Below are positions 25,196 to 52,019 of a stretch of 52,019 nt of DNA, in pieces. Both the position numbers and the translations under genes were made by a program. A model generated the notes under the pieces. It saw only the letters and a program-made list of their open reading frames with translations. It was not told where the DNA came from and did not search any database. This DNA comes from a virus, in IMG/VR virus record IMGVR_UViG_3300025669_000043, positions 1-52,019 of that record; one strand, written 5' to 3'. Numbering within the stretch: the first letter of the stretch is position 1; the number at the start of each line of letters is the position of its first letter.

Positions 25196-26572
25196 TCACA
25201 GCACCCAATTCGCCCCGATGTGGACAAAGGTGAGCGCCAGTGCGTCGGCGTAGTCTGGGGACCGCCCCAAGAGCTTGCGGATGCCCTCCTTGTCAGGCAA
25301 CTTGAAGCGGCCATCCTTGTCATACGTGTAGGGGGTCGCCTTCAACTCATCGGCGAGCAGCTTGTGGTCCGGCAAGGCGAAGCCCTCGCGCAACGCCTTC
25401 GAGGCGAGCAGATACATTTCTGCTCTGACGTTCATGTAAGTCTCATCATCGTAAGCCCCGCCCCCAAAGTGGATACCCCGGGCGTCAACTTCGAGGTTCC
25501 TGTGCATGTGGGCCACCGTCCCCGAGCCTATGCCGGTCATGTCCACCGTGATATTTGTGGCGCTGACTCCCCACTGCTTGGAGAGGCTGGCCGCTACGTC
25601 TCCAGTCCAGATCGGGTCTTGCTTCTGCGCGCTCTCCATGTGCCGCACGCCAAGCCCGTCTCTGATGCAGAAGACGGTCAAGTCTTCGCCCTGCCACGCC
25701 ACGTCGACCCCAAGGCGCAGGCTCCCGTCGTACTGTGGGCTCAGATTCCTGCCACGCTCGATGGCAGCCTCGACAACGGCCAGAGGGAAAAGCCCGTAGT
25801 CGGCGCCCTCCGGGAACTCGCCGCACACCCGCCCGATGTACTCAGCGCTCGCCTCCCCGTAGTCCTTCGCCATCATGGCGATCCACTCCAGGGTCACAGC
25901 CCCCGGGAACAGCGTCGGGTCATCATGCACCACGTTCGGGTGCGTCCATGCGTCCATCTTGACGCAGTGCCACGACCCGGACTTGTACTCGTCAAAGAAC
26001 GCCCCCTCGCAACGGATCGGGTTCCCGCTGAACACGCAAAGCGCGGTCGGGCCTTGGAGTGAAGTCTTGACGCCAAGCATGATCTGGCTTGAGACGCCAT
26101 GCCCTTCGTCAATTGCGAAGAACATATTTTCATCATGCTCGCCAGTGAAGCGGTCCGGGTGGTCTGTCGAGAAGCCGACGGCGTTGCTGTAGGTGTCAAT
26201 CTGCCACCATGGCGTCTCGCCGATGTGCCCCGGGAGCGGGATGTTGTTGGCCTGCGCTTCTCGGAACAGCTTAGGCAGCGTGCCCCAAAGCTGCCGACTC
26301 ACCTGCCGCCCGACGGCTGCTGTCGTGATGATACGGCACGGGCGGAAGCAGCAGCCATACCAGAGCACCGCGCACGCAAGGGCGTAAGTCTTGCCTGTGC
26401 TGTGGCAGGCCCGCAGGTGGACCCGCCGATGCGTGGCCAGGCTGTCGAGAAACACCCGCTGGTCAGGAGTCAGCGTCACCCCGAGGACAAGCTCTACCCA
26501 CCGGGCCGGATGGTGCCTCCCGACCGCGCATATTCGCGCCCAATGCTCAGTTGCCGGAGCCGTCGCCGCCAT
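25196..26572 (-). CDS. terL: Terminase large subunit
   Basis: The start is ATG 26570-26572 with GAGGAG upstream and overlaps the small subunit by 26 nt; 458 residues. The ATPase domain has a Walker A-like LRACHSTGKTYALA near residue 55 and Walker B MFFAIDEGHGV near 150, then a coupling segment CVFSGNPIR. The nuclease domain has three acidic strands: RLGVDVAWQGEDLTVF, ITVDMTGIGSGT and a C-terminal SPDYADALALTFVH. It packages DNA into the prohead through the portal. Confidence 0.93.
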   Translation of the reverse strand: MAATAPATEHWARICAVGRHHPARWVELVLGVTLTPDQRVFLDSLATHRRVHLRACHSTGKTYALACAVLWYGCCFRPCRIITTAAVGRQVSRQLWGTLPKLFREAQANNIPLPGHIGETPWWQIDTYSNAVGFSTDHPDRFTGEHDENMFFAIDEGHGVSSQIMLGVKTSLQGPTALCVFSGNPIRCEGAFFDEYKSGSWHCVKMDAWTHPNVVHDDPTLFPGAVTLEWIAMMAKDYGEASAEYIGRVCGEFPEGADYGLFPLAVVEAAIERGRNLSPQYDGSLRLGVDVAWQGEDLTVFCIRDGLGVRHMESAQKQDPIWTGDVAASLSKQWGVSATNITVDMTGIGSGTVAHMHRNLEVDARGIHFGGGAYDDETYMNVRAEMYLLASKALREGFALPDHKLLADELKATPYTYDKDGRFKLPDKEGIRKLLGRSPDYADALALTFVHIGANWVL

Positions 26573-27071
26573 GGGCGTGCTCCTCGCCTCCCTCAGCGTC
26601 AGGCGCAACCATCTCCGCGGCCAGTTCCTCGACCCGCTGGGCTACTGCGTCCTGGTCAACGCCCCCGTTGACTGTGGCGTCGATGGTCACCTTCTGTGCG
26701 TAGAGCTTGGCCGTGTGTGCGAGCAGGCTGTGCGCCGCGCTCTGGCGAATCTTCTCATCCCGCTCTTGCAGCATGGCCGATCCGTCTGGGTTCTGCCGTT
26801 GCTGTCCGCTCTCGTCTCGCATGGGCTTGAGTGGCCTCGTGAGTTCCCGCTGTGTGAGTAGCGCCTCCGCCTCGACAGAGCCGAGGTATGCCTCCCGTGC
26901 TTCGGTTACGGCCTCCCGCCATTCCTCGGGATGCTCTGCCGTGATGTGGCGTGCGGAGTTCTCATTTCGCCGGCCGATATGCTGCGCGATCTGTGCCCAT
27001 GTATTCCCTTCGATCTGCATTCTGGCGGCCAGCTTTATACGCCGTTGAACCTGTTTACTGAGTTCTGGCAT
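26547..27071 (-). CDS. terS: Terminase small subunit
   Basis: The start is ATG 27069-27071 with AAAGGA upstream; 174 residues. An N-terminal helix-turn-helix (KLAARMQIEGNTWAQIAQHI) for DNA recognition is followed by a helical oligomerisation region (EEWREAVTEAREAYLGSVEA) and a flexible acidic/His tail. It directly precedes and overlaps terL. The match is by architecture and position. Confidence 0.8.
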   Translation of the reverse strand: MPELSKQVQRRIKLAARMQIEGNTWAQIAQHIGRRNENSARHITAEHPEEWREAVTEAREAYLGSVEAEALLTQRELTRPLKPMRDESGQQRQNPDGSAMLQERDEKIRQSAAHSLLAHTAKLYAQKVTIDATVNGGVDQDAVAQRVEELAAEMVAPDAEGGEEHAHGGDGSGN

Positions 27072-27084
27072 CGCTGCAAGTCCT

Positions 27085-28166
27085 TTAGTTTGTACTATCT
27101 GGAGCGGTTCCGCAATACTCAAAGCGTGCTGTTACACGATTGCTTGAAACAGTCTTCTCGAAGGCTCTATTTGTCTTCCCAAATATTCCGACACAGGCAT
27201 GATAAGAGGTACAACGCCACTCGGGTCGTCGTTTTAGACTCTCAATCATCTGACGTTGACTTGTCCTAATCGAATACACAAAACCTTTTCTGACGAACTC
27301 GTTTGCCACCGCCTGCAAGAGCGCGGTTCCAATGCCAACGCCTTGGAAGTCAGGCAGCACGACAAGTCTTGTGCATCGTTTCAGATTCCGTCGTCTCGGA
27401 TGTGGCGAGTGGAGCGTCCCACAGAAGGCAACGATCCGATCCTGCCAAACGCACGCGTGACACCTGGCAGCTTTGTTCAACTTGCAATCTAAATAGTGAT
27501 ACTTGCGAAACATGGGCCACAACGCTGTGCTTGCTTCGTGGAAGTCCAACTGCAGCTTTGGCCGCGCGTCGTTTTTTTTTTCATCTCCATGTCGTCTGTC
27601 GAGAAGACCCAATCTGGCTGAAGCCACGGGATGAAGTCGTCGTGGCAACTCACGACGATCATCTGCTTCCCTGTTGCCTCTATGGCCTTTCTCACAGCAC
27701 GACATGCGAACTGCGCAACCGTTCTGTCCACGGTGCTAGTGAACTCGTCAAAGACGATCAGCAGCCTTTCGTCCAAAAGCGCTCTTGCCAAGTTTATCCT
27801 CATCTGTTCGCCCTGTGACAGCACAGAGTAAGGCTTCAGCCATGATGGGATACTGCCAAAGCCGACGCGATGCAACATCTTGAACAGTCCAACATCATCC
27901 GTCGTCTCAAAGTCATCAATCACAGACGCGGCCTGCCATTGGTAACTCGTGACGTATGCCTCTGGCCACAACTCCCTTGCAAGAGTCGTCTTTCCTGTTC
28001 CACTTCTGCCTGTAATGACGCCGATCTGCCATTCTTGCGGCAGCGGCAGTTCGCCAACGAACCGCTCCTCGATGCGCTTCCCTCTTATGTCGTACTGACT
28101 GCGCACCTTCGCAGCTCGCCATGACTCACTTGGGACGCTGTGTCTCAATATATCAAAAGTCGGCAC
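27085..28166 (-). CDS. ABC-ATPase fused to GNAT acetyltransferase (COG2401-like), frame split at an A10 run
   Basis: The start is GTG 28164-28166 (AGAGGA upstream), overlapping the ParB-like gene by 22 nt. The ABC half has Walker A GRSGTGKTTLAREL, signature LSQGEQMRINLARALL, Walker B LLIVFDEFTSTVDR and H-loop VVSCHDDF. After MEM the coding strand has ten A's (27572-27581). The zero frame stops soon after, at 27489. A -1 shift (or an 11th A) joins KKKNDARPKLQLDFHEAS and a GNAT domain (LVVLPDFQGVGIGTALLQ). The fused product would be ~360 residues, the domain order of COG2401. Programmed slippage, a natural pseudogene or a homopolymer sequencing error are all possible. Mom-like base modification is one speculative role for a phage GNAT. 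Confidence 0.75.
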
Positions 28167-28780
28167 TCGTGATCCTCTTTGAGTTCTTCGTATGCTTCGC
28201 GCACTCCGTTTTCGTCAGTGAACGCCAAGACAAGTTCAAAGTACGTCGGATTCGACGGGATGTTGACATTTGCTCCGTCACCTTCTCCTCCAAGCACGCC
28301 GGGCGCTTCGATGTCCGCCAGCCTGAGCCCGTCCCACAGCTCCGGCAGTTGCGTCTCCAGGTCGGCGAGCATGGGGACCACGCCGTCGGTGAACGTGCCC
28401 TGCAGCGCGGCATTGTTGGCGGCCAGGTTTGCGGCCTTCTCCCGCGGTTCATCCCAATCGACTATTCTGACCGGCCAGCGCGCGCCGTCGTGCTCGATCA
28501 CTGACGTGCCGACAGTGCCCTTGTCGTCTGGCATAGGCGCCACTGGGCCTAGGACCGCCTCAGGCGGGAGTTGGGCGACGCGTTGGTGTCCAGAGACAAG
28601 GTTGCCCGTGCGTGCGTTGTACGTGATTCCTGCCACATCCCCAAAGGCATCCATTGAGAATGCCAGGCCAGCCGCGGCCTCGGGTGCTAAGGTCCGCGGG
28701 TTGTACTCCGCTGGCTTTAGATCCGCGACCGTCTTCGGCCCGGTCACTTCTGGACTTGCTTTGCGCTTTTTAGCGGGCAC
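28145..28780 (-). CDS. ParB-like nuclease-domain protein
   Basis: The start is GTG 28778-28780 with AAAGGAG; 211 residues. Residues ~12-100 form a ParB N-terminal-like domain: LKPAEYNPRTLAPEAAAGLA, then GNLVSGHQRVAQL, the conserved G-x-R-x-x-A-like phosphate site, and VRIVDWDEPREKAANLAANN. The rest is an acidic C-terminal part. Phage ParB-like proteins of this kind often sit beside DNA modification enzymes; here the next gene is the ABC-GNAT fusion. Its first 37 codons after the basic leader are duplicated upstream at 28924-29032. Confidence 0.82.
   Translation of the reverse strand: MPAKKRKASPEVTGPKTVADLKPAEYNPRTLAPEAAAGLAFSMDAFGDVAGITYNARTGNLVSGHQRVAQLPPEAVLGPVAPMPDDKGTVGTSVIEHDGARWPVRIVDWDEPREKAANLAANNAALQGTFTDGVVPMLADLETQLPELWDGLRLADIEAPGVLGGEGDGANVNIPSNPTYFELVLAFTDENGVREAYEELKEDHECRLLIY
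28632..28740 (-). repeat. 109-bp direct repeat, copy A (inside ParB-like gene)
   Basis: Identical over 109 bp to 28924-29032 and in the same orientation. It encodes KTVADLKPAEYNPRTLAPEA and the following residues to DAFGDVA. Confidence 0.95.
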
Positions 28781-28904
28781 GCTGCACTCCTTTCTGCCAT
28801 TCGAGTCATCGTTCCCAAGCATCGGTTGTAGGCCTTCAACATAAATTTCAGGCTATTTTCTATTTCCGCGAACGGGATCGGATCATCCTTCTTGCCGCCA
28901 ATGG

Positions 28905-29243
28905 TCAACCAGTAGAGCCAGAAGCCACATCCCCAAAGGCATCCATTGAGAATGCCAGGCCAGCCGCGGCCTCGGGTGCTAAGGTCCGCGGGTTGTACTC
29001 CGCTGGCTTTAGATCCGCGACCGTCTTCGGCCACTCATACGCGGCCGTGGACCTACTACCCGGGCCGACTGGCAGCCGCTCGGGGATGACCAATGCTTTG
29101 CGACACGCCCGGCAGCGGACTTCAAACATCACCGTGCCGTCACCGAGCTTCCACTTCCTGTGCTTCTCGCGCCGTCCGCCGCAGAGTTCGCAGACGGCAA
29201 GGCCGCCGTGGTGGTAGTCGTCTTTCCATTCTGTGTCCACCAT
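28905..29243 (-). CDS. Zinc-ribbon protein with a fused fragment of the ParB-like domain
   Basis: The start is ATG 29241-29243 behind AAGGAG; 112 residues. The N-terminal part has two CxxC pairs (AVCELCGGRREKHRK, VRCRACRKALVIPERL), a zinc ribbon. The C-terminal 45 residues repeat the ParB-like start (PKTVADLKPAEYNPRTLAP) exactly and end abruptly after DVASGSTG. The 125 nt to the next start (28781-28904) contain a frame reading TIGGKKDDPIPFAEIENSL without its own start, apparently a gene remnant. A rearranged locus is likely. Confidence 0.6.
   Translation of the reverse strand: MVDTEWKDDYHHGGLAVCELCGGRREKHRKWKLGDGTVMFEVRCRACRKALVIPERLPVGPGSRSTAAYEWPKTVADLKPAEYNPRTLAPEAAAGLAFSMDAFGDVASGSTG
28924..29032 (-). 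repeat. 109-bp direct repeat, copy B (end of zinc-ribbon gene)
   Basis: Exact copy of 28632-28740, 292 bp away. Copy B is fused in frame to a zinc-ribbon gene and then runs into unrelated sequence with a stop at 28905, so it is a truncated ParB fragment. Confidence 0.95.
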
Positions 29244-29287
29244 GCTCGTTGCTCCTTCTTTCACCGTAACGCATTTCGCCGTCGCCG

Positions 29288-29590
29288 TCAAGTGCTTTCC
29301 GTCAAGTCTTCTTCGCAGCCAAAGAAACCGCCGATACTCCAACGGCCCTCGAACCGCAGTCCAATCTTGACGCCGAACTTGTCTACGTAGTACGCGACCG
29401 TGTTCACATCGGCCTCCAGGAAGGCCGCGAAGTCCCACAGCCACAGGCTCGCCATGATTCTCGGATACCTGTCGATCACCCGCAAGCCGGTACTCCTCCC
29501 AATCCATACCAGGATGCCCGCCATGCCTGGGAGTAGCCTCAGATCAAGCGTGCGGGAAACACACCGTCTATTCTGGACTCGGGTCAACAC
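29288..29590 (-). CDS. Small protein, unrecognised
   Basis: The start chosen is GTG 29588-29590 because AAGGAG lies 8 nt upstream; 100 residues, overlapping the upstream membrane-protein gene by 23 nt. Content: LLPGMAGILVWIGRSTGLRV, LWLWDFAAFLEADVNTVAYY, GRWSIGGFFGCEEDL. A mildly hydrophobic, possibly HTH-like central part; function unknown. Confidence 0.5.
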   Translation of the reverse strand: MLTRVQNRRCVSRTLDLRLLPGMAGILVWIGRSTGLRVIDRYPRIMASLWLWDFAAFLEADVNTVAYYVDKFGVKIGLRFEGRWSIGGFFGCEEDLTEST

Positions 29591-30236
29591 TGCATCGCTC
29601 CTTCTGCAGGGGGTGGACGGTAATGCCGTAGAGCCGCTCCGACTTGTCACGCAGCAGTCGCCAGTGCTTCGCGTGGTAAGCATATTCCCGCCACGTCGAC
29701 TCAAGTTGCATCTCGGCTTCCAAGCGTTCCGCGCTTCCTTCTCTCTCGGTTACTAGTCGTCGGATCACACATGCGTATGCGTTCGCCATGATCACCGCCC
29801 GGTCAGTCGCCCGTGCGCCAGGGAGGAGACGCCGACATGTGCGGGCCGCGTCCATCCAGCCAGCGGCACAGCCAACGGCAACGAGCAGGACACCAAGGGC
29901 CGCGGCTACTTCGCCCACGATGTCGGGCCGGCTCGTGGCAAGCGCCTCGATCACCATGCCGCACAGCGCGGCCAGAAGGCCAAGTGTCAAGGCGACTCTG
30001 CCAACCTTGCGGCGGTAGTCGCTTGAGCAACCGAGGAGCACGTAACGAGCCCGGAGCCACCCGAGTAGCATCCCAACACTCAGCGCCCCGCCAAGCGCCT
30101 CCAGCCACCATGACGTCCCGGCAGTCAGGATAGCCGGCACGCACATGGCCACCGCGATGGCCGTCCGCTTGCCCAGGGCCTTGTACCGCTCGCCGATGAT
30201 TTCGCTTTGCCTGTTGTGTTGGCGCTTAGCCATCAT
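29568..30236 (-). CDS. Multi-pass membrane protein
   Basis: 222 residues from ATG 30234-30236 (ATGA overlap with the ASCH gene). Four hydrophobic segments: TAIAVAMCVPAILTAGTSWW, ALGGALSVGMLLGWL, VALTLGLLAALCGMVIEAL and AAALGVLLVAVGCAAGW. A basic cytosolic helical tail follows (~60 residues; LEAEMQLESTWREYAYHAKH). Inner-membrane location expected. No family recognised; an early-gene exclusion or host-takeover role is conceivable. Confidence 0.65.
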   Translation of the reverse strand: MMAKRQHNRQSEIIGERYKALGKRTAIAVAMCVPAILTAGTSWWLEALGGALSVGMLLGWLRARYVLLGCSSDYRRKVGRVALTLGLLAALCGMVIEALATSRPDIVGEVAAALGVLLVAVGCAAGWMDAARTCRRLLPGARATDRAVIMANAYACVIRRLVTEREGSAERLEAEMQLESTWREYAYHAKHWRLLRDKSERLYGITVHPLQKERCSVDPSPE

Positions 30237-30739
30237 GCCTCCTCACTGTCGCGGGCGCGGCGTTCGTCATACTTGCGCTTGAAGCGGTCACGGACCGCCG
30301 CCATCGTCGCGTCGTCAAGCGTCCACAGCCCTTGCCGGCCGCGGCACTCGATGGGCGTAGGTAACGGGTGTGCGTGGCCATCTGTAATCCACGCCCACCA
30401 CATACGGCTTCCGGGCAGTGGGGGCAGATCACCAACCAAGCTGTCTCTCGCGTGCTTCGCCTCAAACGGCACGCACTCTTTCAACCACACCGTCGCCACG
30501 ATGGCTCCTGGCACCAAGAGCTTGATGGGGAGCGAGGGGTTGGCCCATGGGCACGCTGCATGTATTTGCCGCACAGCGTCCTTGTCCCGCTCCTTCCCAG
30601 CGTGGATCGCAATTGGCCCCTTGTAGTCCGTCCTCCAGGACCGCACCTCGATACTCTTGCTCCCCATGGCGACCAGCGCGGCCCATGGCTGCTTGAGCGT
30701 CAGGGCCGGCATGTTCGGTCCTATCATCTTACTCGCCAT
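30233..30739 (-). CDS. ASCH-domain protein
   Basis: The start is ATG 30737-30739; 168 residues. The N-terminal PALTLKQPWAALVAMGSKSI followed by EVRSWRTDYKGPIAIHAGK is a clear ASCH signature (L-x-PW-x-x-x-i-x-x-G-x-K-x-x-E-x-R, then HA). A middle GAIVATVWLKECVPFEA and a later WAWI strand complete the beta barrel. ASCH domains bind RNA or modified nucleotides; some hydrolyse N4-acetylcytidine. The role here is probably RNA or nucleotide related. Confidence 0.82.
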   Translation of the reverse strand: MASKMIGPNMPALTLKQPWAALVAMGSKSIEVRSWRTDYKGPIAIHAGKERDKDAVRQIHAACPWANPSLPIKLLVPGAIVATVWLKECVPFEAKHARDSLVGDLPPLPGSRMWWAWITDGHAHPLPTPIECRGRQGLWTLDDATMAAVRDRFKRKYDERRARDSEEA

Positions 30740-30920
30740 CGGGGAGCCCCTTCCCGTGTTCGTCGTCGTTTCTCTGCCGGATTCTGTCCATGTCCCGCAT
30801 ACTCGGTCGCAGGCCGCGTAGCCGGCCCATGAGGTAGCCCCACGCGAAGGAGCCGACAATCATGGCGACCAGCCACAGCACAGCGGCGATCCGTAGCTCG
30901 ATGCTCACAGCGCTCCACAT
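30729..30920 (-). CDS. Small single-pass membrane protein
   Basis: 63 residues with one hydrophobic helix (IAAVLWLVAMIVGSFAWGYL) followed by a basic/charged tail (RLRGLRPSMRDMDRIRQ). GGAGG precedes ATG 30918-30920. It overlaps both neighbours. Function unknown. Confidence 0.6.
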   Translation of the reverse strand: MWSAVSIELRIAAVLWLVAMIVGSFAWGYLMGRLRGLRPSMRDMDRIRQRNDDEHGKGLPDGE

Positions 30921-43667: not shown

Positions 43668-44018
43668 GAGGAATTAAGGAAAGTTGCCAAGTTTATTTGC
43701 ACCACCGCGAGTCAACACAACCCGCAATTTCCCCTCCGAGATATGGCACCTCGAATGGCGTGTCTGCCAGCGGGGTTGTTGCGCTTCCGGTCGCGTGGAT
43801 TGTGAAGGCTTCCGCCTCATCTCGCCGGGAGAAGGGTCGCGGCTGACTGCGGGTCCGTCAGTGTGTCCGCTCTACCGCTGTGCAACCATTATTCTGGGCT
43901 GGCTACTGCCCGTGTTGGGCGGTTGGCCGCCCGCTTCCCCTGGGCCGGACCGCGCGGTGGGGGCGCTTGACGCCTCGCACGGAAGGGCCGTCGTCGGGGC
44001 TGAGCTGGGCCGCTTCAT
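43668..44018. other. Region without a supported gene
   Basis: About 350 nt between the methyltransferase stop and the 43.6-kb promoter. The promoter-proximal part is A/T-rich. At 43870-43895 the minus strand reads AGCGGTAGAGCGG, like a tRNA D arm, but no cloverleaf closes. No ribosome-site-backed frame is seen on either strand. Confidence 0.5.
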
Positions 44019-44935
44019 TCATCCGCGGCTCCAAAGTGTTTGGAAAAAGCGCTGCACCACGATTGGAACGACTCCGTTGCCAAGGGCTCGCAGTCTGTCC
44101 ACCCGAGCGGGAACCCCATGAGCCACTCGACCCACGTCGGGTTCAGTTGACCACCAGCTTGCGTGCTGAGTGCCGTCCCGCCTTGGGGGTATTGCTTCTT
44201 GCGGTGTCCCGTGTCGTCTGCGCATGGGGTTGTCCACATCTTCACCGTCTTGGCCAGCCCGCACTCGTTCGGCCTGTCCTTGCCCTTCGTCGTGCGGCCC
44301 CCCGTTGCATCGGCGACGCACGGCGTTGGCCACGCCCGTGACGGGTTGGCCTCCAGGCTGTCCTTCGCCGCGGCCGGCAGATCCCAACCGTGGGTCTTCG
44401 TTGCCTTCGCCTTGCCCGCCAGCACCGCAACGCGTGGTGTAGGCCAGAGCCCACCACCTGTCCCGCCTGTGCGGGGCGCCGCAGGCCGACGCCGGTATGC
44501 AGTCCCACAGCACGTCATACCCGCACGTGGCCAGGCCCCCGAGAACGGTTCCCAACGCTCCCCCGGCAGTAAGGATGCCTGGCACGTTCTCCATGAAGAC
44601 GAATCGTGGTCGAACTTCGCCAACGATCCTGAGCATCTCAAACCAGAGGCCAGAGCGTTCACATTCGAGGCCAGCACGCTTCCCGGCGCATGAGAGGTCT
44701 TGGCACGGGAAGCCGCCAGCGACAATATCCACGCGTCCAGTCCAGGGTCGCCCGTTGAAGGTGCGCACGTCGTCCCAGATCGGGGCGTCGTCAATGCATC
44801 CATCTCCGATCCTGGCCTTGAGGACTTCAACGCAGTAGGGCTCCCGCTCGACGTAGCAGACGGTGCGGTAGGTTGGCATGGCGAGCTTGAGCCCGAGGTC
44901 GATGCCTCCAATTCCGGAAAATAGAGAAATGCCAT
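44015..44935 (-). other. Long overlapping frame inside the methyltransferase gene
   Basis: A second minus-strand frame stays open for ~306 codons over nearly the whole methyltransferase gene. It contains DSSSWRTCQASLLPGERW, FSGAWPRAGM, repeated WPTP/WTTP and NPTWVEWLMGFPLGWT, phrases I know from phage proteins annotated as DNA methylases. Either these are real dual-coded proteins or an overlap artefact repeated in databases. I see no ribosome site for this frame. Confidence 0.3.
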
Positions 44936-46265: not shown

Positions 46266-49136
46266 TTAACCTTCGGCTACCTCTTGCCATTCTTTCCATG
46301 TGAGTCGCGGGTTATTATAATAGGGCACAACCGGCATAGGCTCGTTGGCGCGAAGCCATGCCTTGCGCGAACCATACTCTCCCTTGCTCTCAAGCCTCTC
46401 GGCTCGAAGCTCAGCAGTGTGATACGCCATGTGGCGCAACGGATACTTGGCTCGAAACGCATTGCCTGCATTCGCCGGCGTGGCGAAGCCTTTGTATGGG
46501 TGCCACGACAGATCGGGCTTGTACCGCACGACGACGGTATGCGCAGATGTGTGAGTCGTGATCTTCGGCAACGCCACAGCGCCCACCTCGTCCCAAGTGC
46601 AAAGATACTCAATCATCATGTGTCCGCAGTCCGTCCGGAGGAACTCGGCACGGTCAAGCGCGTACATGTCCGGCGGTGGAGGAAGCTGATCTTGCGTCGT
46701 GAGGAAGACTGTCTCTGGCTCATAGCCTTCCGAGGCCAAGTGCCGGATCGCTCGCTCGAAATGGTCTGGACTTCGATGCGGCTCCGGGTCCTGCCACACT
46801 TCAAGCACGCTGTGATGCTGCGCGGCCTGCTCAATCATCGTCGGCACGGTGTCGCGGTAGCAGACGGCCACGATCCCGTTGCAGACTTCCGCCGTCCTGT
46901 CGAGTGCAAAGCCGAACAGATCAAGCCCGTCCGTGCGCCCGAGCGCGTGGGGGAAGTCGTGAAAGAATATCATCGCGAGATGCTTGAGTCGCTTGAGACC
47001 AGTGCGGTTGCTGAGAACAAGCGTCCCGCCAGGCTTGTCATTCTTGGCCTTTTCGGCCTTCAAGGCCATGGCTGTGTCGGTGTAGTCTTTGGCGAACACC
47101 GGAAGCAGCGGCAAAAGGAACTCGTTGTCGTCGCGTTTCTTGACGGCCTGGAATTGCCGGTGCTCCTCCAGTAGGGCTTCGCCATGCACGAAGTCGGCTA
47201 AGCCTGCCCTGGTCGCCTCCTTCTCCATGTGAGGCCAAATCACATCGTTCCATGCGTCCTCGCCGAACACGATCCGCAAAGCGGCGAGCCAACTCTTGAG
47301 GGACTCGCCGGCTGGCACGTCGAAGCCGCGGTCCTTCATCGTCTCTCCGCTGTAGTAGTAATGCCTCGCTAAGTGGTCTCTGGAGAGCAGGATCGGAACG
47401 CCGGCAAACCAAGCCTTGAGAGAGATAATCTCCTCGCCAAAGCCCCAGAGCCCGCCATTGTCCATCGTCCCTTGTAGGCGTCGCCAGATCGCAAGCGGTG
47501 CAACGTAGCACGCACCAAGCACCGTCTCACGCTCCTCGATGGCCTCGGTCGGGTGCGTGGTCACCCACTTGACCTTGAAGATCGTGTCAACAGACGGAAA
47601 CCACCGTCCGCCTCCTCCGAAGAACTGACTGTCATCCGTATAGCCGCGATTCAGGGGCTGCACGATGGCCTTCCGCTCATCTGCAATCTGAGCCATCACC
47701 GCAAGGTCGGCACCACTGATTAGCATGTGCGCGTCGAGAATGGCAACGCTCTCAGCAGTCGCGGCTCGAAGCCCAACGTTGCGCGAACGGGAGACGCCAA
47801 ACCGTTTGGGGTTCCGGATCACCGTTGCTCCAAACCGCTTGGCTGCCTCTTGCGGTGCTCCATCCGTGCCAGCATCGTCAACGATGATAACGCGCCAGTC
47901 TCCACTCCCAAGCGTCTCAACAGTCTTGATCAGTCGCTTGCCCTCATTCAGGCATGGGATAACGATGTCCAGCTTGGCCGCGGGGGTTGGGGTCGCGTCG
48001 ATCTTGGTCTTACTCACGGTCGCTCCTTTTCTGGTTCTGGCGTGTTCGGCCTGCTTTTCATACAGGCGCTCGAAGGTAGGGTTGCCACATAGCTCCTCGC
48101 ACAAGCGAAGCGCCACCTCGTGTTCCTTGATTTTCCATCGGCACAGCGGAGACTTGCGCCAGTCGCCGTATCCTGTCGTCCCGTGTTGGCACAGCCTGAA
48201 CCCACTACACCAACCCCATGCCGGGCATGTGCGATCCGTGCACCCGGGAAGGAGCGAGTATGCTTTCTCGCCGCTGGCATCGAAGCCGTCAAACACGTTG
48301 CCGAGCGCATATTCTCGCCGCCCAGCAAAGCGGTGGCAGGGTATGAAGCTCCCGTCTGTGTCCACCCCGTAGTAACCCCTCCCGACGCTGCACCCCTTCG
48401 CGCACTTCGGGGCATCAGGGTCTACCACCTTGAGCATGTTGACAAACAGCCACCACCGCACGGAATTGCCGGCGACAAAGCTATCGCGGATCACCGGGGC
48501 CAGAGCGTCAAGGCCAGCCTCCATGGCCAACAAGTCCGCCTCGCTCCAGGGGACGTTGGTCGCCACGTCCATGTTGATGCTCGTCGCCCCAAGCTCGACA
48601 TACCGCGCGGGCCATGCCACCATGTCGGATAGGTTCGCCGGGCAGAGCGTGCCACGCACAGATGCCCACCCAGCCGCCACCATGCGCTCGAAGTTCTGCT
48701 CTACCACATGCCCTTGCAGCGTTCCTTTCACCATGCCGCACGCGTCGGGAACCTGATCCGCGCTTAGCCTCAGGCGCAGGCTGAAGGCTTTCGCTTTGGC
48801 CACAAAGTCATCTGACAGAATCGAGCCGTTTGTGGGTGCTCCAAAGTAGACAATCTCGACCTTTGAACCGATGGTCTCCTTGATCTGCGCCGACTTCTCT
48901 AGAATCCAGTCCCATCGTAACGCTGGCTCCCCTGCGCCAAGCCAGTACACGCTAAGCGCTTTTTGGTCTGGCGCAAGGTTGGACTCAAGCCAAGACAGAG
49001 CAGCAGCAAAGACTTCTTCACTCATGTCCTGGGCAGATCGCGCTCCGGCAGAGTAGCAATATGCACATCGGGCGTTACACCGATCCGTTGCTGACAGGTC
49101 AAGGTATCGCACGTTCTTGGTCAAGGTCGCTCTCAT
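46266..49136 (-). CDS. Radical SAM/SPASM enzyme fused to GT-A (polypeptide GalNAc-transferase-like) glycosyltransferase
   Basis: The start is ATG 49134-49136 in an ATGA overlap with the tail gene and behind AAGGAGA; 956 residues. Residues 8-210: radical SAM core with C20-x3-C24-x2-C27 (DRCNARCAYCYS). ~240-330: SPASM-type auxiliary cluster region (CAKGCSVGRGYYGVDTDG, IPCHRF, CTDRTCPAWGWCSGF, LCRWK). ~388-600: GT-A domain: LDIVIPCLNEGKRL, IIVDDAGTDG, VAILDAHMLIS (DxH near 465), GGLWGFGEEIISLKAWFAG near 562 and ARHYYYSG. DxH plus the W-G-E...H layout recall GT27 ppGalNAc-transferases. ~700-956: a further domain without a recognised family. Coupling to the Thr-rich tail gene suggests the tail as substrate. 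Cytosolic; no signal peptide. Confidence 0.85.
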   Translation of the reverse strand: MRATLTKNVRYLDLSATDRCNARCAYCYSAGARSAQDMSEEVFAAALSWLESNLAPDQKALSVYWLGAGEPALRWDWILEKSAQIKETIGSKVEIVYFGAPTNGSILSDDFVAKAKAFSLRLRLSADQVPDACGMVKGTLQGHVVEQNFERMVAAGWASVRGTLCPANLSDMVAWPARYVELGATSINMDVATNVPWSEADLLAMEAGLDALAPVIRDSFVAGNSVRWWLFVNMLKVVDPDAPKCAKGCSVGRGYYGVDTDGSFIPCHRFAGRREYALGNVFDGFDASGEKAYSLLPGCTDRTCPAWGWCSGFRLCQHGTTGYGDWRKSPLCRWKIKEHEVALRLCEELCGNPTFERLYEKQAEHARTRKGATVSKTKIDATPTPAAKLDIVIPCLNEGKRLIKTVETLGSGDWRVIIVDDAGTDGAPQEAAKRFGATVIRNPKRFGVSRSRNVGLRAATAESVAILDAHMLISGADLAVMAQIADERKAIVQPLNRGYTDDSQFFGGGGRWFPSVDTIFKVKWVTTHPTEAIEERETVLGACYVAPLAIWRRLQGTMDNGGLWGFGEEIISLKAWFAGVPILLSRDHLARHYYYSGETMKDRGFDVPAGESLKSWLAALRIVFGEDAWNDVIWPHMEKEATRAGLADFVHGEALLEEHRQFQAVKKRDDNEFLLPLLPVFAKDYTDTAMALKAEKAKNDKPGGTLVLSNRTGLKRLKHLAMIFFHDFPHALGRTDGLDLFGFALDRTAEVCNGIVAVCYRDTVPTMIEQAAQHHSVLEVWQDPEPHRSPDHFERAIRHLASEGYEPETVFLTTQDQLPPPPDMYALDRAEFLRTDCGHMMIEYLCTWDEVGAVALPKITTHTSAHTVVVRYKPDLSWHPYKGFATPANAGNAFRAKYPLRHMAYHTAELRAERLESKGEYGSRKAWLRANEPMPVVPYYNNPRLTWKEWQEVAEG

Positions 49137-52019
49137 TCTCCTTCGCAAGGGGCCTGGCACGCTGGCTCACAGCCTTCACACGCGCCTTCGCACGCGTTTT
49201 CGCACGCTGGCTCACATGGTGCCGCGGTGGTCATGGGTGCGGCTGTCGTCGTGGTGGCTGGCGCTTCTGTGGTAGTCGTGGGTGCCGCGGTCGTCGTGGG
49301 TGCCGCGGTCGTCGTGGGCGCCGCGGTCGTCGTGGGTGCCGCGGTCGTCGTGGGCGCGGTTGTCGTCGTTCCCGCTGGCGTGGTCGTGGGTGCTGGCGTG
49401 GTCGTGGGCGTGGGCGTGGGCGTGGGCGTGGGCGTGGGCATGGGCGTGGGCGTGGGTGCTGGCGTGGTCGTGGGTGGCTCATCACAGCCTTCACACGCGC
49501 CTTCGCAAGGGTTTTCGCACGCTGGCTCACATGGTGGCTCACATGGTGCCGCGGTGGTCGTGGGTCCTGGCGTGGTCGTGGGTCCTTCTGTCGTCGTGGT
49601 GGTAGTCGTCGTGGTGCCTTCATCATCCGTGCCTGGCCAGTGTGGCCAGTATGGAGGGTCGTCTTGCCCGTCTTCGTCTGCGCTCGCATCAGAGGGGTCT
49701 ACATACATCGGGCTTGGCGGATCGTAGGTGACAAACCACTCCCTCGGCGGAATGTCAATCTTGAACTCGCCGCGTCCGGTCGGCAAGTCGAGTGCCACGT
49801 CCTTCACCCACCCACGCGCGCCCGCGCTGCCAAGCAAGCTGGCCGTCACGCCGACTAACTCCCCGACCAGCACATTGCTCATGTCGATGAACGTGGGGAC
49901 GCGGAGCTGCTCACGAGCGTAGCGCTCCCGGTAGAGAATTTCATAGTTCAGCCAGCGCACGGGGTTGCGATGCGAATATGCCCACGCATCGACGCTCCGC
50001 TCTCGCATCCCGTAGCGCAGCATGGGCACTCCGGCAACGGGATCGCGCAGCCGCTCAGTCAACTCGGCTGGCTCCTCCGTGTCGTTTTCGTCTTGCTTCG
50101 CTCCACGGGACTTATAGCGGCTGGCCACCTCCGTGACGATGTGCCGCACGTCGCTCTTGGCCAGAGCCCGCTTGTCAATCAACGTGGTCGCGTTGCTGAA
50201 AGTGTTGGTCACAGCAGTGGCCTGGCCGAAGTCATTCTCAAGCACCACGATCCGAAGGCCCCGGCTCCAGTCGATGGCAAGCCAGCCAAGGTAGGCCAGC
50301 TCGTTCAAGGCCTGCGCAAGAGGCTTGGCCTCTGTGAGACAAAAGCACATGCGCACGTGCGCGCGCGCGGCCTCTGCCGTCGCCAAGGCGGTGGCGTCGA
50401 TGTCAGCGCTTGAGATTCCCTCGGCTTGCGCCAAGTGGTCAATGATGGTCGCGGGGTTCTGGATCAAGTCGCCACCGTCGGTCGGCCCCTTCACGTCACA
50501 CACGATGGTGTCTGTCTGGTCCCCAACGATCCGAGTCAGCTTGCTGGGCGGCTTGGAAAATGTCAGCGTGGCGATATTGCGGCCCAGCTCCGTGGCGAAC
50601 TGGCTGTCGTTTGTGTCGAGCGTGTAGAGGTCAGTGGGGATGTTCCACAGCTTCCCGTCTCCCAAGCGGATATATGCCCGCTCGACTGTGACCCCAACCG
50701 TGGCGCAGACGCCATACACGTACTCGTCATTGGGGCTGGCGAGCCGCACGATGGAACCGCGGTCGTGGCCAGAAATGTCGCTCGTGATGGCCCCAACAAA
50801 ACTTGTGACCGTATCGCCGGGGTGGTAGCTCTCAAATCCAATCGGCAGACCGGACACCTCGTAAATCACCTCGACCACGTCTACTACATTCTTCACCTGG
50901 GAATAGGGAGCTTCGATGTAGACAACGGTGTCTGCCCCATCCTGCTCTGTCCAAACGATCTTGCGGTATTGGTGGTTCGTGCCGGCTCGCACTCGCAGAC
51001 GCAAGCACGACCCGATCAGGGTATGGGGGCTGGGCTGGTAGTTGTGTAGCCGGAGCCATCGGGTCTTGTCTACCTTTGTGTTGCTGTCCCATGTAACCCA
51101 GATGCCAAGTTCGTCGTTGTCGTACTGCACTGAGGGACGGTTCGTGATGGTAAACTCGTTGCCCGTGAAGCTGCCATCCATCAACTCGTCGTCTAACCAA
51201 ATCTTGATCGCGCCAGAGCCGAAGTCCGTCGGGTCGGCAACGTGGAAGGTTGTACCGCTCCACTTGATCGCTGTGGTCGCTTGTGTCTTGGGGCCGCCGC
51301 CCTTGAGGAACACGGCCGGCACGCGCTGCGCGTAGCCGTAAACCAGAGGCACGACTTTGCCTTCAACTGCCTCACTGCAGTAGGGGAACTCCGCCCGGGT
51401 CACCACGTCGCCGCCGGCTGGGGCACGGTGTGCCGTCCCAATGTCCTGACAGCGCAAGGACACATCCCCGGCGATGGCGTCAACTGTGCTGTCTGGCAAG
51501 GTCACTCCGCGCCAGAGGAGGAGCCAGTCGGCTTTGTCCATGCCCGTCCACGCTCGGTATACTTTCACCTCGTGGCCTGCTGTGCCTTCGTCTTGGATCG
51601 CGTCCAGGATGCTGTGGCTGTCGTCTGGTATTGCATCAAGCGCGAGAGTGGCATTGAACGTGCCGGGCCGGCAGTCGCCACAGTCGGCAAGGTGCGCGGT
51701 CGGCTTGCCCCATTGGGTCACCCGTCCCTTGACTGCCGTGTCGCCGATGGTCTGCGTTGCGCCGCCATAGTAATGGGTTCCAACCCCGCCCCCCCAGGCA
51801 ACCTCAAGAACGGGCATTGTCTGTTGGGCCGACAACGCCATCTGAATAGCTGCCGGCCCTGGCGTCGTCGTGGTGGGGGCCGCGGTCGTCGTGGGGGCCG
51901 CTGTGGTCGTCGTCGGGGCCGCTGTGGTCGTGGTCGGGGCTGCCGTCGTCGTGGTCGGGGCTGCCGTCGTCGTCGTCCCGCCGCCCGTGGTGGTCGTGGG
52001 GGCAGGGGTCGTCGTCGTG
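49133..52019 (-). CDS. Giant tail protein, hub part with mucin-like and Cys-rich C-terminus
   Basis: The frame is open to the window end. The first internal ATG (51839-51841) has no ribosome site and is preceded in frame by the TTTAAP linker, so I treat it as internal. Residues after it: a tail-tip/hub protein (VLEVAWGGGVGTHYYGG, DDSHSILDAIQDEGTAG, RCQDIGTAHRAPAGGD, LAYLGWLAIDWSRGLRIVVL, GARGWVKDVALDLPTGRGEF). At ~720 it becomes T8EGPTTTPGPTTTAAP, a Cys block (CEPPCEPACENPCEGACEGC), a PT/PTP tract, TTTAAP repeats and a final Cys block ending PCEGE. The product is assumed to be ~1,200 residues once joined to 1-778. Likely roles: host recognition and tail-tip. Confidence 0.85.
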   Translation of the reverse strand, partial: TTTTPAPTTTTGGGTTTTAAPTTTTAAPTTTTAAPTTTTAAPTTTAAPTTTTPGPAAIQMALSAQQTMPVLEVAWGGGVGTHYYGGATQTIGDTAVKGRVTQWGKPTAHLADCGDCRPGTFNATLALDAIPDDSHSILDAIQDEGTAGHEVKVYRAWTGMDKADWLLLWRGVTLPDSTVDAIAGDVSLRCQDIGTAHRAPAGGDVVTRAEFPYCSEAVEGKVVPLVYGYAQRVPAVFLKGGGPKTQATTAIKWSGTTFHVADPTDFGSGAIKIWLDDELMDGSFTGNEFTITNRPSVQYDNDELGIWVTWDSNTKVDKTRWLRLHNYQPSPHTLIGSCLRLRVRAGTNHQYRKIVWTEQDGADTVVYIEAPYSQVKNVVDVVEVIYEVSGLPIGFESYHPGDTVTSFVGAITSDISGHDRGSIVRLASPNDEYVYGVCATVGVTVERAYIRLGDGKLWNIPTDLYTLDTNDSQFATELGRNIATLTFSKPPSKLTRIVGDQTDTIVCDVKGPTDGGDLIQNPATIIDHLAQAEGISSADIDATALATAEAARAHVRMCFCLTEAKPLAQALNELAYLGWLAIDWSRGLRIVVLENDFGQATAVTNTFSNATTLIDKRALAKSDVRHIVTEVASRYKSRGAKQDENDTEEPAELTERLRDPVAGVPMLRYGMRERSVDAWAYSHRNPVRWLNYEILYRERYAREQLRVPTFIDMSNVLVGELVGVTASLLGSAGARGWVKDVALDLPTGRGEFKIDIPPREWFVTYDPPSPMYVDPSDASADEDGQDDPPYWPHWPGTDDEGTTTTTTTTTEGPTTTPGPTTTAAPCEPPCEPACENPCEGACEGCDEPPTTTPAPTPTPMPTPTPTPTPTPTTTPAPTTTPAGTTTTAPTTTAAPTTTAAPTTTAAPTTTAAPTTTTEAPATTTTAAPMTTAAPCEPACENACEGACEGCEPACQAPCEGE
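49203..49630 (-). repeat. Thr/Pro/Ala and Cys-block repeats in the tail gene
   Basis: Degenerate 15- to 21-nt repeats encode PTTTAAP, PTPTPTP and TTTAPTTT. Two Cys-rich modules with the same CExACExxCEGACEGC plan flank them (about 49140-49215 and 49475-49545). The DNA repeats of both modules are long enough to recombine. Confidence 0.85.
51848..52019 (-). repeat. Thr/Pro/Ala-coding minisatellite (right window end)
   Basis: In-frame continuation of the linker (TTTTPGPAAIQ immediately upstream of the hub domain, AAPTTTT units further up). 51901-52019 equals 22-140. Confidence 0.85.

Follow-up and report, generated by a model that had tools for sequence, protein, structure and literature searches.

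The window, namely the whole 52,019-nucleotide stretch of IMG/VR record IMGVR_UViG_3300025669_000043 analysed here, carries on its minus strand an ABC ATPase ORF at 27489–28166, which starts with GTG at 28166 and encodes a product of 225 aa. The ORF contains a run of ten A's (A10) at 27572–27581, which is read as ATG AAA AAA AAA ACG in the ABC frame and is regarded as a putative slippage site. Downstream of the run, a GNAT domain extends from the conserved W..F..YHYL to the end at 27088–27519, as defined by the Pfam match and the conserved residues, the most conserved of which are retained in the window; its frame lies on the same strand at −1 relative to the ABC frame and ends at 27085. In Pfam, the two halves matched ABC_tran (4.2e-9) and Acetyltransf_1 (5.3e-9). 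In PHROG_11143, a profile of 357 positions and unknown function, the ABC half covers positions 6–197 and the GNAT half covers 197–352, which indicates a continuous single protein in other phages. The ABC/GNAT pair split by A10 with the GNAT half at −1, as given in the preliminary description, is confirmed by the ORFs, Pfam and PHROG_11143.

The A10 run is the sole A/T run of at least nine in the window, and runs of nine A's gave a mean of 0.05 matches per shuffle in 100 dinucleotide-preserving shuffles of the window. Read by eye, ATG AAA AAA AAA ACG holds a −1 heptamer of the type X_XXY_YYZ in the zero frame, as A_AAA_AAA. An RF2-type cassette (Shine-Dalgarno, 3 nt, CUU in frame) is absent at the window junction. 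The translations of the ORFs overlap at 27489–27571 (minus strand), where the linker and the beginning of the GNAT domain are encoded in the GNAT frame, denoted g, and the tail of the ABC product in frame g+1, which ends in GPCFASITI before the stop codon; selection on both frames of this stretch is shown in the relatives. The claim that the GNAT half has no start of its own proved nearly true but not strictly so, because possible start codons exist 3' of the run, namely TTG twice and the ATG in W-P-M-F, whose use would cost conserved residues. The listed 206-aa ORF has its ATG start at 27705, within the ABC gene. The GC content falls to 0.51 across 27001–28000 from about 0.62 elsewhere in the window, as would be seen if the ABC-GNAT gene had been imported.

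The neighboring genes, all on the minus strand, were as claimed beforehand: a ParB-like gene (28145–28822; phrog_9353 and phrog_620) overlaps the start of the ABC gene by 22 nt (28145–28166), and the large terminase subunit (25196–26608) matches phrog_2 at 1.6e-29. The ORF at 26547–27122 is a probable small terminase subunit by its position between GNAT and the large subunit, with weak matches to phrog_2109 (5e-4) and phrog_645 (0.019). An ASCH-domain protein is encoded at 30233–30859 (Pfam ASCH, 2.2e-4), and an ASCH protein is also annotated beside the gene in Streptococcus phage MismyG. When 229 loci were examined, the exact 22-nt overlap with a ParB-like ORF was found in 134 of the 201 that have an upstream ORF, and a TerL-like ORF lies downstream in at least 85 of the 126 deduplicated loci that were eligible by having at least 3.5 kb of sequence. 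Pfam ParB_N is found in 61 of 67 members of the ParB-like partner family, whose structural model is of middling quality (pLDDT 76.4); the ParB-like protein of the window has no Pfam match. An exact direct repeat of 109 bp (28632–28740 and 28924–29032) places a copy of the beginning of the ParB-like gene at the end of the ORF 28905–29507, and is either a recent duplication or an assembly artefact.

Relatives were collected by tblastn against 50,697 phage records, of which 80 contained the ABC half and 48 the GNAT half, and from three IMG/VR scans and one GTDB scan, from each of which the best 80 loci of a larger number were taken. The first scan of viral contigs, with the ABC protein of the window, gave no relative because its patterns were not conserved ones; scans with the GNAT half and with alignments succeeded. 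The resulting 323 records comprise 322 loci and the window; five records lack one half, and 318 have both. Among these 318, a tally that takes in L011 and L012, in which the ABC domain itself is broken, and L247, whose GNAT match is split in two, the GNAT half is in frame with the ABC half in 282, at −1 in 29 and at +1 in 7. Deduplication before counting reduced the genes with A10 from 139 to 73, those with G5 from 48 to 26 and those with no run from 84 to 78, and the alignment A4 was made without L043 and L048, which have longer loops. Across most of the range L170–L242, many loci come from planctomycete genomes, and in the phylum of L176 a match at 1e-20 was found in 8 of the 49 genomes searched, some of the matches being partial. 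Terminase genes lie downstream in all five genome-contig neighborhoods checked, namely those of the planctomycete loci L176, L225, L206 and L217 and of the Alsobacter locus L215. These five loci, at least, therefore look like prophages and not chromosomal genes, and the set is named here for the genome contigs from which it was collected.

The overlapping frame g+1 encodes a tail of approximately 25–30 aa that ends in ITI or III and a stop codon within the codons of the GNAT motif H-H-Y-L, and it is conserved alongside frame g. In three sets of in-frame genes, frame g+1 is open for 24 codons before H-H-Y-L and then stops in 68 of 69 genes from genome contigs, 33 of 33 from phages and 73 of 73 from the A10 clade, whereas synonymous-codon shuffles give an expectation of 17.2, 5.1 and 14.3, respectively; two genes with no readable motif were left out of this count. 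As a control, a stretch of the same length taken upstream is free of stops in 30/69, 12/33 and 11/73 genes. The mean pairwise identity of the tail is 0.416, 0.421 and 0.627 in the three sets, against 0.274, 0.269 and 0.497 when shuffled, and the tail consensus of the genome-contig set, GxCLxxITI before the stop, can be compared with the end of the window ORF given above. In the −1 lineages, the tail frame is the standard reading. At the level of sequence comparison, this family shows programmed recoding and not a broken gene. The conservation of both g and g+1 indicates that a short ABC product and a long ABC-GNAT product seem to be made throughout, so that the pair of products would seem to be constant and the shift signal variable: an RF2-like cassette in some lineages, −1 sites and A/T runs in others, including the window, and, in one clade, a covarying hairpin with an exact A10 immediately behind it.

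The RF2-like lineages were analysed as in-frame relatives that have no long A/T tract, 71 deduplicated from genome contigs and 33 from phages, and the letters and the 3-nt spacing of the prfB cassette served as general background for the comparison. The junction in these genes mostly reads xGG AGG or xGG GGG, then NNN CTT, and then mostly CGG, CAA, TGG or AGG. The in-phase pattern xGG [AG]GG NNN CTT occurs in 55 of the 71 genome-contig genes and 19 of the 33 phage genes, compared to 3 occurrences in 429,003 codons of other ORFs at the loci, and xGG [AG]GG at the junction is present in 63/69 and 26/33 genes, respectively. The codon 3 nt past it is CTT in 54 genome-contig and 19 phage genes, GTT in 9 and 1, and CGA in 0 and 6. 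Codon choice in the genome-contig set is correspondingly narrow, with Arg encoded by AGG in 53 of 54 cases (expected 3.9) and Leu by CTT in 61 of 61 (expected 9.4). According to the available text of the sources, the RF2 +1 site is CUU with a Shine-Dalgarno sequence, the Ty1 site is CUU_AGG_C (PMC5009743, PMC10885494), and in the PRFect material every +1 RECODE entry with CUU before a stop is prfB. The ABC-GNAT relatives resemble prfB and Ty1 in having a Shine-Dalgarno sequence, 3 nt and CTT, often followed by CGG, AGG or TGG. They differ from prfB in that the site has no stop codon and the output is a second isoform, and the window differs in having no such cassette.

The gene order of the window, with the GNAT half at −1, is found in Lactococcus phage P335, in Streptococcus phages Javan523, MismyG, Javan141 and phiGBSVK-E1, and in Oenococcus phage Vinitor-27. 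All six have a ParB-like or "methylase" gene, the 22-nt overlap, the ABC gene and the GNAT half at −1, and the terminase comes next except in Vinitor-27, where the sequence ends. These phages have short shift sites and not long runs, the exact sites being a reading of the sequence; read in the same way, the −1 shift lies at A_AAA_AAG in Enterococcus phage 9184 and near G5 in Thomasclavelia phage TR-TP1.

In the A10 clade, the standard reading passes through the run into the GNAT half. When a scan was ranked by the full protein, all of the best 80 loci had A10 in frame; this ranking favors in-frame genes. Ranking on the GNAT half, which does not do so, yielded 68 new two-half loci within the best 80 kept, comprising 57 with A10 in frame, 6 with A9 (−1), 4 with A11 (+1) and 1 with A10 (−1); many contigs are common to the two scans. 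In the 73 deduplicated genes of the clade, CAA AAA AAA AAT is invariant. If one A were lost, a stop would follow after 26 to 29 codons in 73/73 genes, and with one extra A the next codon would be a stop in 70/73. Four members, L257, L262, L278 and L293, have A11, so that the standard reading hits a stop right after the run, and the same hairpin is present in L257, L262 and L278, which were those checked.

The predicted hairpin of this clade ends 0–1 nt 5' of the run in 73 of 73 genes and folds better than 95% of synonymous shuffles in 68 of them, with a mean z of −3.66. Rare codons before the run are kept, Gly as GGG in 61/65 (expected 6.5) and Thr as ACC in 64/72 (expected 8.0), and they sit in the two arms. 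Pairing is preserved in 94.4% of cells (71 sequences, 40 distinct), and the covariation is 0.213 compared to 0.119 when shuffled (0 of 500 reached the observed value) and at most 0.079 when the hairpin is slid, with changes on both sides at three pairs. The same 73 genes contain 20 A8 and 7 A9 runs at other positions, which indicates that long A runs are not banned and that the evidence lies in the hairpin together with the invariance and not in the run alone. The hairpin model, a folding prediction, is shown to hold for the A10 clade and not for the window, where a 5' hairpin next to A10 is no better than in shuffled sequence (z 0.12 and −0.73). In out-of-frame lineages beyond the A10 clade, the results are mixed, with z of −2.36 for L071, −2.0 for L289, −1.03 for L205, −1.13 for L179 and −1.12 for L232, and values near 0 or positive for the others.

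On a FastTree phylogeny of 169 rows, the frame state must change 12 times. A clade of 89 rows (support 99) contains the window, the Streptococcus, Lactococcus and Oenococcus phages and almost every member with an A/T run; as read from the printed tree, 89 of 89 rows in it either carry an A/T run of 7 or more or have the GNAT half out of frame, and the deep branches are −1. The out-of-frame rows outside this clade are L249, L032 and L011. The window itself forms a long branch, and its exact place in the tree is unsure. We consider it likely that the two-isoform output of this large ParB-like/ABC-GNAT/terminase family of tailed-phage genes predates any single recoding signal in it. The lineages would have exchanged the RF2-like +1 cassette, −1 slippery sites and hairpin-plus-A10 transcriptional slippage at one protein junction while both overlapping frames stayed under selection, and the short form would serve as a regulator or dimer partner of a DNA-modifying long form.

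For the window, the reading with strong support is that one gene encodes two proteins by programmed recoding, the long form being made by slippage at A10. As the sequence shows, standard reading yields the short ABC ATPase, whose tail of roughly 30 residues ends within the codons of the GNAT motif Y-H-Y-L, and a fraction of reads would shift by −1 at A10 to give a long ABC-GNAT protein of about 360 aa (27085–28166, minus strand). The shift could arise either when the RNA polymerase adds an A or when the ribosome slips back by one base, and the run in the window is judged from its letters to suit both alike. In the relatives, the same two products would be obtained by an RF2-like +1 cassette, by −1 sites, or by a hairpin followed by A10. 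The suggestion of a two-product gene in the preliminary description is well supported by the comparison, since the overlapping frame is kept in three sets of relatives and the same gene order with the −1 frame recurs in Streptococcus, Lactococcus and Oenococcus phages. Since ABC ATPases function as dimers, the ratio of the short to the long form would set the number of GNAT domains per dimer. The ParB-like partner with its 22-nt gene overlap and the location just ahead of the terminase suggest a role on phage DNA at about the time of packaging.

The run could also be explained by phase variation, in which DNA replication alters the length of the A tract and the phage population mixes GNAT-on and GNAT-off genomes. 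A9, A10 and A11 do occur in or near the A10 clade with the frame following the length (10 of the 68 new loci have A9 or A11 and an out-of-frame GNAT half), and several A11 rows stand in the tree as isolated tips next to A10 rows. However, near-identical genes on different contigs have equal tract lengths in 67 of 67 pairs, which are not independent, and in the next similarity band 143 pairs agree and 8 differ, all 8 involving one locus. Many relatives have C5, G5, A6G or RF2-like sites, which in length or type do not suit DNA slippage, and selection on frame g+1 is not expected under on/off switching. Phase variation is thus unlikely, and it was set aside on the agreement of tract length among near-identical genes. 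An assembly or sequencing error, behind which the true gene has one frame, or a decaying gene, appears quite improbable. Homopolymers are error-prone, and a one-base error would be invisible from the sequence alone because both frames of the window are intact past the run. Nevertheless, the same out-of-frame layout is found in the independent isolates or prophages P335, Javan523, MismyG, Vinitor-27, TR-TP1 and 9184, several of which have it at runs so short that errors of this kind are uncommon. The window also keeps the most conserved GNAT residues and the conserved ITI end of the short-form tail, and an assembly error is unlikely because the frame of ABC relative to GNAT is the same in all related lineages. 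Two separate genes, with the GNAT half starting by translational coupling at the ABC stop codon, would agree with the annotation of P335 and Vinitor-27, where the GNAT start was placed so as to overlap the ABC stop by 4 nt. This arrangement is scarcely probable, as a coupled start would leave out W..F and the greater part of Y-H-Y-L, residues that vary little or not at all in frame g, and many relatives carry a continuous ABC-GNAT protein; a self-start of the GNAT half may still yield a minor third product.

If recoding is accepted, the substrate of the long form has to be considered. DNA-base acylation was predicted for the ABC-coupled GNAT family by Iyer et al. 2013, as cited in the available text of PMC7824862, and we regard DNA acyl transfer, as predicted in print, as the most likely reaction. 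The cited member QAX98348.1 is homologous over both domains, the match of Aeromonas phage AsFcp_2 being 42.9% over the ABC core and 33.9% over the GNAT domain. The accession lies on the homologous gene of AsFcp_2 according to the fetched records, and the available text of the jumbo-phage paper PMC7824862 ascribes it to phage pT24, whose own copy has an extra break inside the GNAT domain; the loci concerned are L334:1877-3055 and L325. Action on proteins, tRNA or small molecules instead of DNA is a substantial alternative, with somewhat less than an even chance. For the fused relative L036, the structural model (83 rows, pLDDT 90.2) consists of an ABC cassette followed by a GNAT fold. Among the PDB matches listed, its ABC part is closest to ABC ATPases (Z about 16), and its predicted GNAT part to 1y9k (Z 15.1) and to the protein acetyltransferase RimI, 5isv (Z 15.0, 128 residues aligned, rmsd 2.3), a proximity that would suit a non-DNA substrate; a second fold search barely covered the GNAT half. 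In a PDB sequence search, no acetyltransferase of known function stood out (best E 0.01). Mu Mom, whose database record describes it as acting on phage DNA shortly before packaging, is called a GNAT-superfamily enzyme in the available text of PMC7824862, yet hhalign with a single Mom sequence detected no similarity to the GNAT half (E 0.28, probability 0.2%), which also favors the non-DNA alternative. Against this alternative stand the linkage to the ParB-like gene and the terminase and the published prediction of DNA-base acylation (PMC7824862).

The two-product reading has its closest counterpart in dnaX, whose tau and gamma forms arise by −1 ribosomal frameshifting in E. coli and by slippage on nine A's in Thermus thermophilus, according to the available text of PMC5009743 and PMC1088944. 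Both systems would produce long and short forms of an ATPase from one gene, use A runs and reach the same end by lineage-specific mechanisms. In contrast to dnaX, another protein is concerned, three kinds of signal are found, and the standard reading is short in some lineages and long in others. The A10 clade resembles Thermus dnaX and, in having a predicted nascent-RNA hairpin directly 5' of the tract, also the Roseiflexus IS630 element, in which a stem-loop stimulates transcriptional slippage (Penno et al. 2015, as cited in the available part of PMC5009743). The tract in IS630 is T5C5, whereas in the ABC-GNAT clade it is A10, seen in DNA. The family of Iyer et al. is homologous in both domains, and recoding is not mentioned in the available text of PMC7824862; no earlier report of recoding in ABC-GNAT proteins was found in a literature search that reached few subscription papers. 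If true, the present reading would make this family a phage counterpart of dnaX, in which the decoding trick was swapped repeatedly and two proteins were kept, and would place the RF2-type cassette in wide use outside prfB. It would also make the purpose of the ratio of the two forms testable, give the uncharacterised ABC-GNAT enzymes a clear first experiment, and correct the annotation habit of missing the GNAT half or calling it a separate gene.

PADLOC gave only ATPase-type matches and one methyltransferase-type match, all below use. A probable DNA methyltransferase is encoded at 44015–44935 (phrog_1008) and a radical SAM protein at 46266–49160 (phrog_1802), and these two are other DNA-modification candidates in the same phage.
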